A stretch of 64,000 nt of DNA from a virus. The stretch covers positions 62,001 to 126,000 of IMG/VR virus record IMGVR_UViG_3300031669_005479; one strand, 5' to 3'. Numbering within the stretch: position 1 is the first letter of the stretch; every line of letters begins with the position of its first letter. The notes below the pieces were generated by a model, which searched no databases, was not told the DNA's origin, and was given only the letters and a program-made list of their open reading frames with translations. A program made the translations under genes and the position numbers. Shown here piece by piece: positions 36,158 through 61,819 of this stretch.

Positions 36158-37282
36158 ATGAAATATACCACAGAAACATTCATAAAAAAAGCAAATGAAA
36201 TTCATAATAATAAATATGATTATTCATTAATTGAATATATCAATACTCAAACATTAATTAATATTGTTTGTCCTCAACATGGCATTTTTAAACAAATTCC
36301 AGCCAATCATATTAGAAATAATAAACCACGTGGATGTCCAAATTGTGCAAAAAATAAAAAATTAACAACAGAAACATTTATAAAAAAAGCAAAAGAAGTT
36401 CATAGTGATAAATATGATTACTCGTTGGTTAAATATGTTAATGCCAATACAAAAATTAAAATTATTTGTCCCAAACATGGTGTTTTTGAACAAAAACCAT
36501 TTCTACATTTACAAAATTATGGTTGTCAAATTTGTGGAAACAACATAAAATTAACAACAGAAACATTTATAAAAAAAGCAAAAGAAGTTCATGGTGATAA
36601 ATATAATTATTCCTTAGCTAAATATGTTGGTTCTCACTTAAAAATTAAAATCATTTGTCCCAAACATGGTGTTTTTGAACAAAAACCAAATAATCATTTA
36701 TGTGGACAAGGATGTTATAGGTGTGGAGAAACTATTAGAAGTAACATAAAATTTATAAACGCAAATAATTCTTTTCTAATTAAGGCAAATAAAATTCATT
36801 CCAATTTATACGATTATTCATTAGTTCAATACAAAAACAATAGAAGTAAAATTAAAATTATTTGTTCAAAACATGGTGTTTTTGAACAAAAAGTTAATTC
36901 ACATCTAAGTGGTCATGGATGTCCTGAATGTAATATTTCAAAAGGTGAACTAAAAATAAAAAATATTTTAGATGAAAAAAATATTGAATATGCCTTTCAA
37001 AAAACATTTGATGATTGTATCACCCCAAATAATAGAAAACTAAAATTCGACTTTTATTTACCAAATCAAAACATATTAATTGAATATGATGGAAAACAAC
37101 ATTACGTGCCATTAAATTATTTTGGCGGTATTAAATCATTTAATGTTAGAAAAGAATATGATGAAATTAAAAATAAATTTGCAAAAGATAATAACATTAC
37201 ATTGTTAAGAATCCCATATTTTAAATATAAAATAATTGATAAATTAATTCAAAAAATTATAGAAAACAAAAAAGACTACTAA
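36158..37282 (+). CDS. Vsr-like homing endonuclease with zinc repeats
   Basis: A 374-residue protein with four repeats of about 60 residues (start TTETFIKKAKEVH, then YDYSLVKY, then IKIICPKHGVFEQKP, HL and GCxxC), each carrying a likely zinc site C-x2-HG ... C-x2-C. The C-terminal 110 residues are a Vsr/EDxHD-type nuclease (KLKFDFYLPNQNILIEYDG with KQHY). Proteins of this layout are free-standing homing endonucleases in large phages and giant viruses. It is the only plus-strand gene inside a minus-strand block, sits between two transcription units, and the repeat DNA copies at about 36361 and 36547 are nearly identical, all signs of a mobile gene. Confidence 0.85.
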   Translation: MKYTTETFIKKANEIHNNKYDYSLIEYINTQTLINIVCPQHGIFKQIPANHIRNNKPRGCPNCAKNKKLTTETFIKKAKEVHSDKYDYSLVKYVNANTKIKIICPKHGVFEQKPFLHLQNYGCQICGNNIKLTTETFIKKAKEVHGDKYNYSLAKYVGSHLKIKIICPKHGVFEQKPNNHLCGQGCYRCGETIRSNIKFINANNSFLIKANKIHSNLYDYSLVQYKNNRSKIKIICSKHGVFEQKVNSHLSGHGCPECNISKGELKIKNILDEKNIEYAFQKTFDDCITPNNRKLKFDFYLPNQNILIEYDGKQHYVPLNYFGGIKSFNVRKEYDEIKNKFAKDNNITLLRIPYFKYKIIDKLIQKIIENKKDY

Positions 37283-37315: not shown

Positions 37316-39451
37316 TTATTTCTTTGGTCTATATTTTGTCCATAAATCAAAATATTCTTTTTTTTGACTATCACTTAATGTATTAACATCTTTTTTTTCA
37401 TAGTCTTCAAGTTTAACGTAATCATTATTATCGCTATCTGTTTCTTGTGGTGCAGCCACTGCAGGTACTGCACCAGCAGCACCAACAATTTCATTCATGT
37501 TGTCGCCAACATTTATTGGTTTATACCCAAGTAGTTCATCGGTTTTTTCTTCATCGTCCCCATCTTCACTAGCATCACTTGCTGCGCCAAACTGTGCACT
37601 TGCTTCTGGAGTATCTTTTTCTGTATAGTATTCACTATCTTCGCTAAGATGATCCATTACAATTTCAATTGCAACTAATGGGTCGTCGGTATGCTCCTTT
37701 TCGACTTCAAGTCCCATTAATATTTGTTTTGGATCAAAATCTAATGGCGATTTACCGTCACCCTTACCACCAATGAGCACCTCACCCTCCTCTTCTTTAT
37801 CTTGCGCCAACTTACTAATTTCATCTGCAGTTTCTTGTGATGCACCTGTATTTTCTTCTTCATTCATTTGAGACATATCGTATTGTAGTCCAATATATCC
37901 GATCTTTGGATTCCACGACATTATATATCCATCTTTCTCATAGATATGGTCACTGCTACCATGTCCCAATTCATTGGTGGTTGCATGTTCACCGCTATAA
38001 TGCCATTGTTTTAAATATTCCAGTGCAGCATCCTCACCCTTTGTTTCAAGAATTTCTAATGGTTGAAACGCAGCATCTCCCTGTAGAAAAACAATATCTT
38101 CATATCTATCCCCACCAACACTTTCACTAACACCTGTTTTAACACTAAGTTTTTTCGTTTTATGTTTTTTCTTTGGTTTTGGATATTTTGTGCTTGTTTT
38201 TATGTCACTAGCAATTCCCAATTCTTGAGGATAGTCGGTTTCATTTAATTGTTCCATATATCCATGAAATAATTTCATTGCTGTTTGTCTTACCAATTCA
38301 TAATATTCCTCTTTAGACATTTGATACACCTTAACACCTAAACGCTTCTTAAGCATTTCATCTGCCATGTTTATCAATTTTTGTCTTCTTTCTGGTGTTA
38401 ATTTATTATAATATGCAGGAGTTATCTTATCCACATCAATAGATGTATCGGATTCAGGTAAAAACTTATCTGCCCAAGCAGGATAAACCCTTTTTTTTCC
38501 TTTTGCCATCATATTACCAAGACCAGTAGATTTTTCCGCACTTTGAGATTCTGGCTGTTCAAGATTTTTTAATTTCTCAAATTCCTTATCGATTTCATAT
38601 CGTGTTGGATAGTAGTATGAATTTCTATTTCTTCTATTGTTGTCATTAATTAAATTTTCAACTGCTTGATTATATAGTTCAACATCCTTTGGATCATCTT
38701 CAGTCTCTTCTTCAGGTTCTATTTTAGTATTATATTTATTTTTTTTCATTTCGAGATAATCGGGTGGCATTGCAAGTGGGTCATCTTCAATAGTATCATT
38801 TGTATAATCATCATCAACAACATCGTCATTATCATCGTTTTCGCTAACAAATTTCTGTAATTCAGGTGAATTTACCCTAAGTTTAGGATTAACGGGCTTT
38901 TCATCAAAATATGCCTTTTGTGTTTGAATTTCTTCACTACCTTTTCTATATGGAATTTTATCGATGAATTTAACTGCTTCTTCATACATCTCATCCATTT
39001 CAACGGCAGATTCACCAGCATCCGCATATTTACCAACAACATCAATCATATCTTGACCATATTCTTGGTTCATCTTTGTCAATATGCTTGCACCTTCAGG
39101 TATTTCAATATTATAGCCAGATGAATTATATTCAAATCCAATTAATTCTGCATTTCCAACAGTAAAAACACCTTCTTGTTCGCCCTCATTTGAGGTTATT
39201 TTAAATCTAAATGTAACCTTTTCATTATCATTACCTGATGCAACAATCGTAATATGACTTTCATTATCAACTGTTTGACTATTGGTCTCATCAATATTCA
39301 GATTTCCATCAATTAATTTTGTTAATTCATTTTTGACAACCTCTTCTTGATAATTACCTTGGGTCATATCCTCATTTAGAATTATTTTATTGACTCTTTG
39401 AAACATCTCAAGGAATCTTTCTTTACTACCAATTGAACTATATATTTTCAT
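37316..39451 (-). CDS. Large acidic protein with capsid-targeting-like leader
   Basis: A protein of about 711 residues from the ATG at 39451; a start 15 bases earlier is possible but the chosen one aligns residue for residue with the leader of the next gene (MKIYSSIGSKERFLEM, then RVN, then LNE at 25-27). The body is very acidic and low in complexity. Two recognisable phage domains lie in the C-terminal half: one with DAAFQPLEILETKGEDAALE and YIMSWNPKIGYIGL, and one of the DUF5661 type (GLEVEKEHTDDP, then MDHLSEDSEYYT). The leader and its LNE suggest a protein packed in the prohead and cleaved, by analogy with T4 internal proteins. Function unknown. Confidence 0.75.
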   Translation of the reverse strand: MKIYSSIGSKERFLEMFQRVNKIILNEDMTQGNYQEEVVKNELTKLIDGNLNIDETNSQTVDNESHITIVASGNDNEKVTFRFKITSNEGEQEGVFTVGNAELIGFEYNSSGYNIEIPEGASILTKMNQEYGQDMIDVVGKYADAGESAVEMDEMYEEAVKFIDKIPYRKGSEEIQTQKAYFDEKPVNPKLRVNSPELQKFVSENDDNDDVVDDDYTNDTIEDDPLAMPPDYLEMKKNKYNTKIEPEEETEDDPKDVELYNQAVENLINDNNRRNRNSYYYPTRYEIDKEFEKLKNLEQPESQSAEKSTGLGNMMAKGKKRVYPAWADKFLPESDTSIDVDKITPAYYNKLTPERRQKLINMADEMLKKRLGVKVYQMSKEEYYELVRQTAMKLFHGYMEQLNETDYPQELGIASDIKTSTKYPKPKKKHKTKKLSVKTGVSESVGGDRYEDIVFLQGDAAFQPLEILETKGEDAALEYLKQWHYSGEHATTNELGHGSSDHIYEKDGYIMSWNPKIGYIGLQYDMSQMNEEENTGASQETADEISKLAQDKEEEGEVLIGGKGDGKSPLDFDPKQILMGLEVEKEHTDDPLVAIEIVMDHLSEDSEYYTEKDTPEASAQFGAASDASEDGDDEEKTDELLGYKPINVGDNMNEIVGAAGAVPAVAAPQETDSDNNDYVKLEDYEKKDVNTLSDSQKKEYFDLWTKYRPKK

Positions 39452-39458
39452 GTTTTCA

Positions 39459-39911
39459 CTATTCAAATATTATTGAATTATTTTTTCCAAAATCTCTTAA
39501 TAATACACCTGCTAATGAATTTGCCTCATTTTCGTCTGGACTACCAGTTTTATTAGAATCGGATGTTAATTTTCCATCTAAATTTTGCTTATGGTGTATC
39601 ATTTCGTGTGCTAAAGTTCTTAAAACATCTGCTAAATTTCTATTTGCGATAACAACTCTAATTTCTTTTGATATTGGAGTATATTTTCCAAAAGAATGCA
39701 TAGTTTCAGCCTCTTTTTCATCATTAGATAAAACAATCTTCGGTAAGTTATCTGTATAACCTAACCTTTTACCAGCATACTTAACAAAATCGTTAATTAT
39801 CTCAATTTTTTTTTCTTTAGGTAATAATGCCTCATTTAATGGAGCATTACTTACCCTATTAAGCATTTCAAATAATCTTTCTTTCGAACCATATTGATGA
39901 AATATTTTCAT
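39459..39911 (-). CDS. Zinc metallopeptidase-like protein with leader
   Basis: A 150-residue protein. Residues 1-27 are a leader with GSKERLFEMLNRVSNAPLNE, nearly the same as the leader of the following gene. Residues 95-140 hold an HExxH zinc site: LAHEMIHHKQ (H102, E103, H106), then SPDENEANSLAG with a glutamate as likely third ligand. This is the pattern of small gluzincin peptidases. The domain from 33 to 150 would remain after cleavage behind LNE. It could be an enzyme carried in the capsid and injected, or a structural relic; the motif is intact. It lies 2 bases after the gene at 39914. Confidence 0.75.
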   Translation of the reverse strand: MKIFHQYGSKERLFEMLNRVSNAPLNEALLPKEKKIEIINDFVKYAGKRLGYTDNLPKIVLSNDEKEAETMHSFGKYTPISKEIRVVIANRNLADVLRTLAHEMIHHKQNLDGKLTSDSNKTGSPDENEANSLAGVLLRDFGKNNSIIFE

Positions 39912-39913
39912 TA

Positions 39914-40651
39914 CTAATTCATTTCATTAAAACTGTTCTGAACATCTATTTTTGACCTTTGGGGTAATTCATCAAAATCTGCAACAAACGTACCATCAGG
40001 TAGTTCGCTAATACCCCTTTCTTTTTCCTTCTCACGATTTGCATTAAACCAATTACCTTGCCAAAAATCATTTAAATTAAAATAATATGGATAACTTACG
40101 TTTGTTTTATTCATTAGTTTTTCTGAATTAGTTGGTTCTCTAACTTCTTCCACATCAGCATTAAGTATTTCCAATTTTCCATTTAATCCTTGAACAACGT
40201 TATTCAAATTTTCCAATTGGTCATGAATATCTTTCATGGCTTCAAGGTTATGTTTAATAATATCATTTTGAATATCGTTTACTTGATTTTCTGGTTCAGG
40301 ACTATTACCTATAGGATTGGTGGAAACATTATCAATACCATCAGACATATCATCACCATCATCCACATTGTCACCATTATTATCATCAGATTGGTCAAAT
40401 GCTGGAACTGGTGATGGTGTTGGATTACCATCAACTGGTTGATCGTTTGATGGTGCTGGCAATTGATTTCCCACTGGTTTTGGTGCATCTTCTTGATCTC
40501 CAGCCTCATTAGTTAATTTAGGCATTTCATCAAATTCTTCATTTGCACCAACTAATGGACTATATCTCGCAGTTTCGTTAATCTTATAATTAACACGATA
40601 TTTAATCTTTCGGATTTCTTCTGAAAGATTAGTTAGGTTTTCATTTTTCAT
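39914..40651 (-). CDS. Hypothetical protein with (I)NE leader
   Basis: A 245-residue acidic protein. The N-terminal 26 residues (LSEEIRKIKYRVNYKINE) end in INE and match the RV(N/S)-x2/3-(L/I)NE pattern of the two genes that follow. Residues 60-120 are low-complexity, rich in P, D, N and Q (KPVGNQLPAPSNDQPVDGNP). A likely coiled coil runs from about 130 to 170 (IKHNLEAMKDIHDQLENLNN). The last 60 residues contain NLNDFWQGNWFNANREK. I do not recognise the family. Probably a prohead or internal virion protein, by leader and neighbourhood. Confidence 0.65.
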   Translation of the reverse strand: MKNENLTNLSEEIRKIKYRVNYKINETARYSPLVGANEEFDEMPKLTNEAGDQEDAPKPVGNQLPAPSNDQPVDGNPTPSPVPAFDQSDDNNGDNVDDGDDMSDGIDNVSTNPIGNSPEPENQVNDIQNDIIKHNLEAMKDIHDQLENLNNVVQGLNGKLEILNADVEEVREPTNSEKLMNKTNVSYPYYFNLNDFWQGNWFNANREKEKERGISELPDGTFVADFDELPQRSKIDVQNSFNEMN

Positions 40652-46336: not shown

Positions 46337-46651
46337 TTATTCGTTTATATAGGTAGTTAATATCGACTCATAATCAGATTTTGCCTTACTTAATGGAAAT
46401 GCTATTCGAATAAGTGCACCTTCTGGTATGTCAAATTCACTAACATATATATTATTGGCATATAATATTAGAAAATCATAAAAAGGATTACCATAATATT
46501 TTTGTGACAATTTATCGAGTCTACTGTTTTCAGGATTCCAAGTTTCATACTTATCACTAGAATTTATTGGTAAATCAACAAATGGCATTGGGTTAATTGT
46601 ACCGTCCGAATTTCTCAATATTGAATATCTATCGTAGTCTTTATATGGCAT
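46337..46651 (-). CDS. LysM-like baseplate wedge protein (gp53-type)
   Basis: A 104-residue protein. Residues 33-90 look like a LysM-type module of tail proteins: YETWNPENSRLDKLSQKYYG, then FYDFLILYANN and a closing IPEGALIRIAFP. The phrase resembles both gpX-like tail proteins and the T4 gp53 wedge component that holds the baseplate together. It lies 9 bases after the large hub gene and is the last gene of that unit. Confidence 0.65.
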   Translation of the reverse strand: MPYKDYDRYSILRNSDGTINPMPFVDLPINSSDKYETWNPENSRLDKLSQKYYGNPFYDFLILYANNIYVSEFDIPEGALIRIAFPLSKAKSDYESILTTYINE

Positions 46652-60440: not shown

Positions 60441-61819
60441 TGAGTAGAGCAAGCGATAAATCTGCAACATTCAGTAAAATTCGTGCAATGAATTCTGCTA
60501 ACATGCAAGGTAAAATGCCTAAGCAGTTAAATTCATTGCCATCAATCAATAATAAAACCGAGCCAATACCATATTTGCTCGATATGTTAAAGGTTGTTGC
60601 AGGTTCAGAAGCATTGAAAATGTTGGTTGGTGGCCTTCTAACTAAAGTTGTTGGAAGTGCAGAGCCAAAAGTAAAGTCTGTAATTAAAAAACAATTTACT
60701 CAATCAAATTCAAGCAATTCATTACCAGCATCATTTAAAACAAACGGTGTTAACATACCCATGAAAACACTTGATCCACAAAAAAAATTGCAAGTTAGTC
60801 CCACATCAACAAATACTGGTGGTAAAATATTGTATGGTTCGCCAAGCAATAATAACTTTGATTATCGGGTTCGTGATTCGTTGAGACTTTCTGGACAACC
60901 AGTTCAAACAAATAATATGCAAATTATGCATAATGCAGGAATTGATAGTCTTAATATAAAACCTGCTATAAGTAGTTCAAGTTTAAATGTTGGTACATAT
61001 TTTAGTCAATTTGTTGATAATAGCCAACTTATAAATACAAATGAAATTGTTGGTAGTACAATGGATAGAATTTTTGGCACAATGTCCAAAAGTCAAAATA
61101 AATCTGCCGAACAAATATTGGATGAGTTACAAACAGAAAAGATGTTAGAACAGGTAATTAATGGTGATGATTCATTTGTAATTTCACCTGAAGATAATGC
61201 TGCATTACAGAAGCAAGCGTTAGAAACTGCACAAGGTGTATTAAATTATGATATGGGTTGTGGAATAATGCCATCTTCACTATCAATGAATGCGCTCAAT
61301 ACAATGATAAATACCATATCTGGGTCAACTGATCCCAATGCTGTTTCAAATGCAATTGAGGATGCGCTAGATGCAAGTCTTTCAGGAAATACTGATGTTT
61401 CTGCAGAAAATAAACAAACAATAAAAGATGGTTTTTTCACTAAGTTGATTAATACCCTTACTGTTAAACTATTGGCAGCAGTAACGACAGCACCACAAAT
61501 ACGTGCATTGATGGGAATTATGAGTAGTATTCAAAATAATGGATTGATGCTTCTTACTAGCGTAAAGGATGATATTAAAAAATGGAAAATCTACATAAAA
61601 TGCCTAGCAAAAGAAATTTTAACAATGGTTGCTGAATTTATATTTGCATTGGTTGTTGCATATTTAATTAAGTTGATAAAACCAATTGTAGTAAAAATTG
61701 TAAAAGAAAAGGTTAATCAATTTGTTAGAATAATAAAAAGTTTAGTTTCAGCAAAAGCCGCAGCACTTTCTAGTGCTGTTGCAGGAAGTGCCGATACTTC
61801 AGCAGGACCACCAACATAA
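60440..61819 (+). CDS. Virion-associated protein with C-terminal membrane segment
   Basis: A 459-residue protein. The first 230 residues are polar, with S, N, Q and T, and may be extended. A helical part follows, then a hydrophobic stretch at about 393-415 (EILTMVAEFIFALVVAYLIK) and a basic, alanine-rich end. The layout (long polar part, late membrane-active segment) would fit a tail or hub protein that contacts the host membrane. I do not recognise the family. It is translationally coupled to the gene before it. Confidence 0.6.
   Translation: MSRASDKSATFSKIRAMNSANMQGKMPKQLNSLPSINNKTEPIPYLLDMLKVVAGSEALKMLVGGLLTKVVGSAEPKVKSVIKKQFTQSNSSNSLPASFKTNGVNIPMKTLDPQKKLQVSPTSTNTGGKILYGSPSNNNFDYRVRDSLRLSGQPVQTNNMQIMHNAGIDSLNIKPAISSSSLNVGTYFSQFVDNSQLINTNEIVGSTMDRIFGTMSKSQNKSAEQILDELQTEKMLEQVINGDDSFVISPEDNAALQKQALETAQGVLNYDMGCGIMPSSLSMNALNTMINTISGSTDPNAVSNAIEDALDASLSGNTDVSAENKQTIKDGFFTKLINTLTVKLLAAVTTAPQIRALMGIMSSIQNNGLMLLTSVKDDIKKWKIYIKCLAKEILTMVAEFIFALVVAYLIKLIKPIVVKIVKEKVNQFVRIIKSLVSAKAAALSSAVAGSADTSAGPPT

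Follow-up and report, generated by a model that had tools for sequence, protein, structure and literature searches.

The window analysed is a stretch of 64,000 bases, positions 62001-126000 of a 202,814-base virus record with a G+C content of 31%. Three neighbouring minus-strand open reading frames were found in it, P711 (37316-39451), P150 (39459-39911) and P245 (39914-40651). The P711 frame opens at a TTG codon (39466), and its relatives start where this frame has an ATG (39451). The coordinates of these genes, of further leader genes and of the head module are collected in Table 1.

Table 1. Leader genes and head genes of the phage. Positions refer to the window, or to the whole record where marked R.
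Feature	Position	Strand	Remarks
P711 leader MKIYSSIGSKERFLEMFQRVNKIILNE	39371..39451	-	27 codons from ATG; proposed cut after E27
P711 body, proposed mature cargo	37316..39370	-	684 residues; homologues in 51-52 related loci
DUF5661 (PF18905) domain of P711, residues 575-611	37619..37729	-	E 1e-6, above curated cut-off
P150 leader MKIFHQYGSKERLFEMLNRVSNAPLNE	39831..39911	-	27 codons; proposed cut after E27
P150 body, zinc-metallopeptidase-like	39459..39830	-	123 residues
P150 HExxH motif (HEMIH, residues 102-106)	39594..39608	-	
P245 N-terminus MKNENLTNLSEEIRKIKYRVNYKINE	40574..40651	-	26 codons; proposed cut after E26
P245 body	39914..40573	-	low-complexity acidic part, predicted helix 120-170, conserved C-terminus
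Class 1 leader gene	R 141866-142570		leader ends KLNE
Class 1 leader gene	R 174053-174445		leader ends KLNE; acidic tail
Class 1 leader gene	R 178239-178544		without clear (L/I)xE
Class 1 leader gene	R 180826-181467		without clear (L/I)xE
gp23 capsid protein	R 152164-153867		
Prohead protease, gp21-type (S77)	R 155637-156413		PF03420, E 1e-19
Portal	R 164201-167503		PF07230
Class 2 leader gene, start MSEDIRKMIDKVKNFKQFVNE	R 191607-192074 (L009:9607-10074)		outside window; VNE end, LYHGTS body

A preliminary description of this DNA reported that the leaders of P711 and P150 align without gaps over 27 residues. The alignment was recovered with 15/27 identities. When the record's N-terminal 27-mers were compared pairwise (21,945 pairs), this pair ranked first (runner-up 12 identities). 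The two bodies are unrelated; their best ungapped 27-mer match has 8 identities, and BLASTP revealed no significant similarity between them (E ≥ 2.4). Judged by these comparisons, the likeness of the two leaders is real and beyond chance. P245 had been described as a third carrier with a shorter match. A conserved (I/V)(N/S)E site is indeed present, and that part of the claim stands. The shared leader does not, as the N-terminus of P245 differs, having only the R-V...INE end in common with the other two, and is not detected by the leader profile described below. The structural model of P245, of low confidence as a whole, has helices at residues 4-19 and 120-170, the second of them long, and between them a stretch predicted with low confidence.

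Relatives of P245 were found on 53 viral contigs. None was found in the phage record collection or, in a scan aimed at the host, among bacterial and archaeal genome contigs. The order and strand of P245, P150 and P711 are kept in 52/53 contigs. The gap between P245 and P150 exceeds 300 bases in 9/52 contigs, and several of these gaps contain another leader protein. A leader-terminal [LIVM]xE occurs in 38/41 P150, 35/35 P711 and 38/40 P245 relatives; for P245 the site reads (I/V/L)(N/S/G)E in these 38, and the remaining two sequences have gaps there. The leader is the most conserved stretch of P711 (column entropy 0.95 vs 1.1-2.7 elsewhere), the LNE positions being 97, 100 and 100% conserved in 35 relatives, and conservation falls sharply right after E27. 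Length differences among P150 relatives are confined to the segment between the helix-like part of the leader and the LNE triplet. One lineage (L122-L126/L130) has a shortened P150 leader without LxE, and most of its P711 versions are leaderless.

The leaders of 31 P150 homologues, all from other phages, were combined into a leader profile, with which the first 70 residues of each of the record's 879 ORFs were searched. Six leader proteins were detected: P150, P711 (E 7e-12) and four encoded outside the window (E 7.6e-7 to 1e-3), the next candidate having an E-value of 0.5. The preliminary description had proposed such a search of all predicted proteins; with four further carriers the observation is larger than first reported, and the leader family reaches genes beyond the window. 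The consensus start of this leader, designated class 1, is G-S-K-E-R-L-F-E-M-x-x-K-V-N. The carrier at record position 174053 lies within the head gene cluster, upstream of the terminase, portal, protease and gp23 genes and in one orientation with them; leader genes also occur at a distance from that cluster. A P-loop kinase-like protein of a relative (L164) has the leader and lacks a clear (L/I)xE. The hydrophobic moment of the leader, calculated for an amphipathic helix, showed no significant excess over shuffled sequences. Among cultured phages the only class 1 homologue found was a weak match in Lak phages. There, an ORF of Prevotella phage Lak-B9 (L223) has the class-1-like start MDKIQKKRLYESIMKSISKTVKGKLNE followed by DYVDE; its E-value is about 3, yet it is present in nine Lak genomes. 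The literature yielded no direct record of class 1 or of the second leader class described below.

A head module of the T4 type is present in the record, with gp23, a scaffold-like protein, a prohead protease, a portal and a terminase-like protein, the last identified from position and sequence. This module marks the virus as a large T4-like phage. The prohead protease gene, which the preliminary description had suggested looking for, is present, and a PF03420 protease was likewise found in 9/10 relatives searched. In two relatives (L240 in G005, L241 in G002) an intein-like insert that begins with Cys interrupts the protease after SEADHPD, near its conserved His, the whole being a single 650-residue frame. 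The portal gene, too, has an intein-like insert, which includes an HNH domain (PF14890, E 2e-8, slightly below cut-off).

LNE and INE together occur 89 times in the record proteome vs 51 expected from shuffling, and 10 times at N-termini vs 4.8 expected (P = 0.024). These counts alone were rejected as evidence, the tripeptide being common in this proteome. The tripeptide by itself is weak evidence; significance comes from the leader as a whole and from how well it is conserved in relatives. T4 gp21 cuts off its own N-terminus and the 65-residue N-terminus of gp23, and it also shortens Alt and internal proteins by a small N-terminal peptide (PMC9958956). In the capsid protein of this phage M-I-N-E, followed by S, stands at residues 57-60, just ahead of the region alignable to mature T4 gp23*. 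In twelve further phage sequences this position is occupied by INE or LTE. The N-terminal region of the protease has LNE in this record, and LNE, ITE, IAE, ISE, INE or VNE fill one alignment column in nine sequences. Capsid protein, protease and leader proteins hence converge on one rule, (L/I/V)-(N/T/S/A)-E, and all three would be cut after this motif. The leader ends had been said to fit the (L/I)-x-E rule of the T4 protease, and they match the putative cut points of capsid protein (INE) and protease (LNE). The more general proposal of head targeting with T4-type cleavage is strongly supported in silico by the protease, the gp23 sites and the recurrent leader.

The body of P150 has features of a metallopeptidase. 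H102, E103, H106 and E127 are invariant in 31 sequences, and the body gave a weak match to the phrog_87 metallo-protease family (E 5e-4); no Pfam family exceeded its curated cut-off. The best Foldseek matches of the P150 model (pLDDT 78.6) are ImmA/IrrE, selecase and CapP-type structures (6cyj, 8sln, 4qhi) with probabilities of 0.87-0.96, which are suggestive only, as E-values are 0.04 and above and TM-scores are low. P150 has the HExxH motif in common with these metallopeptidases. Together with the model, these features are suggestive of a zinc-metallopeptidase-like protein in which the conserved downstream Glu, E127, is a candidate zinc ligand among the Glu residues. Distant relatives of P150 were found in cyanophages and Flavobacterium phages. 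That of cyanophage B23 starts with a T4-like leader, MNYKQFLRE followed by S; that of S-SRM01 has no leader.

A second leader, class 2, is present in the gene at record position 191607. A whole-protein search with its product returned 18 loci, in most of which only the first ~19-30 residues match (75-96% identity) and the bodies differ beyond the leader. Pattern and profile searches of whole contigs placed the near-identical MSEDIRKMIDKVKNFKQFVNE leader on about 17 unrelated bodies in related phages, with two to four class 2 leaders per contig in three contigs. Where a capsid protein was found on these contigs, it is 57-88% identical to that of this phage. No class 2 homologue was found in cultured phages. 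The class 2 core KNFKQFVNE resembles the T4 leader MKTYQEFIAE. The T4-like pattern K/R-x-(F/Y)-(K/R/Q)-x-(F/L/I)-(I/L/V)-x-E was matched close to the N-terminus in two genes of the record, 191607 and 60574-61593, vs 0.09 expected, and in no gene of the trio. The gene at 60574-61593 of the record, which lies immediately to the left of the window, has KNFRHLITE followed by G in its N-terminal region and is a second candidate for a T4-like leader. Because a Pfam search with ten class 2 bodies gave nothing above the cut-off, motifs recognised by eye are the basis for their ADP-ribosyltransferase-like, acetyltransferase-like and papain-like readings. Read in this way, the LYHGTS body of 191607 suggests an ADP-ribosyltransferase-like fold. 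In three loci of other phages (L029, L060, L063), P-loop and phosphatase-like genes begin with a recurrent MIKLxELLKE and adjoin a nucleotidyltransferase-metallopeptidase fusion that starts MNSLxxSLISxFL(T/N)E. These two starts are possibly further leader families.

We consider it likely that the N-termini in question act as cleavable leaders for capsid targeting, whose cargo is packaged, trimmed and probably injected. Late in infection the leader would carry its protein into the prohead core, where the phage's own gp21-type protease would cut after (L/I/V)-(N/S)-E and free the leader. The body would stay in the head with the DNA, its passage into the next host along with the DNA being the likely outcome. 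P150 would thereby be delivered as a small zinc metallopeptidase and P711 as a DUF5661 protein, and P245, from the same gene block, would be a protein of the head or core that undergoes processing. The packaging and cleavage steps are well supported in silico by the predicted protease and its sites; injection with the DNA, and an effect in the host, would follow by analogy with T4. The best reading of the two leaders, class 1 and class 2, is that both are cleavable and capsid-targeting and would act like those of T4 internal proteins.

The main alternative keeps targeting and cleavage and dispenses with injection: the cargo works in the prohead, where P245 would belong to the core or scaffold, P150 would be an additional maturation protease and P711 a structural protein of the head. 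The fixed trio in 52/53 contigs, unlike the swapped internal proteins of T-even phages, agrees with such roles, as do the position of the 174053 leader gene in the head cluster and its acidic tail, and other jumbo phages have a zincin-like metallopeptidase for which a role as a maturation enzyme has been suggested (PMC7824862). However, the class 2 leader sits on varied effector-like bodies, as would be expected of injected proteins, and some leader genes are far from the head cluster. We regard this alternative as unlikely, though a serious contender.

The leader might instead be an uncut docking or localisation signal for the tail, baseplate or another phage compartment, with LNE as part of a binding motif. 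In favour, some leader proteins have no clear (L/I)xE, and a baseplate-wedge-like gene (46337-46651) lies 6 kb upstream. Yet the leader site matches the capsid protein and protease sites, the indels of P150 relatives part the helix portion from the triplet, and in P711 conservation is lost immediately past the Glu; docking is accordingly quite improbable. Chance, or a gene start that was recently duplicated from one neighbour to the other and left a likeness without function, could be considered because the P711 and P150 genes lie side by side with the same orientation, but the likeness persists in about 50 contigs, the leader is found on at least four distant genes, and it is better conserved than the P711 body. 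We give this explanation almost no credence.

Cleavable capsid-targeting leaders, the preferred reading, have precedents. The T-even internal proteins IPI, IPII and IPIII are unrelated apart from their N-terminal leader (PMC3012670, PMC12373910), and, like the trio, they combine a short (L/I)xE-ended leader on unrelated bodies with a gp21-type protease (PMC9958956). The T4 leader has ~10 residues vs 25-27 in class 1 and the sequences are dissimilar, no similarity to the T4 capsid-targeting sequence having been found in the trio. Furthermore, the T-even internal protein locus is variable, whereas the trio is a conserved block. The trio would thus work like the T4 family and is not counted as a member, because its leader is unlike that of T4 and its presence in virions is a prediction. 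In the giant phages SPN3US and phiKZ, packaged proteins are trimmed at x-x-E by the prohead protease, and two SPN3US paralogues have an identical N-terminal 15-mer (PMC5694885). In these phages the residue at P3 is A or S (A-x-E, S-x-E), and the propeptides are mostly longer than 100 residues; here P3 is L, I or V and the leaders have 25-27 residues.

T4 Alt is a packaged and injected ADP-ribosyltransferase. Gene 191607 is similar to it in having a VNE-ended leader and, by eye, the LYHGTS body; it differs in its leader and in the absence of any family match.

Injected phage proteins are hard to spot, as their bodies are unrelated and the leader alone gives them away. Known leaders come mostly from T-even phages. 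Two further leader families and a cross-checked cleavage rule would permit candidate injected proteins to be listed in uncultured large phages, the tag providing a simple way to find them by sequence. Where the target of a T4 internal protein is known, it is a restriction enzyme of the host, which the protein blocks (PMC12373910); a list of this kind would hence be a direct source of candidates for anti-defence and host takeover. On a wider reading, this largely uncultured lineage of large T4-like phages would use two delivery tags side by side, a core tag, GSKERLFEM...LNE, on a fixed block with a metallopeptidase and an almost invariant swap-in tag, MSEDIRKMIDKVKNFKQFVNE, on an open-ended range of effector-like proteins, which would make the virion a general protein-delivery device. 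We consider the chances of this reading to be evenly balanced; if it is true, the cargo list of the virion could be read from sequence.

Adjoining P711 is a single plus-strand gene (36158-37282) with repeated TTETFIKKAKEVHGDKYDYSLVKY units and a nuclease-like C-terminus, which by eye resembles an insert of the mobile endonuclease type.
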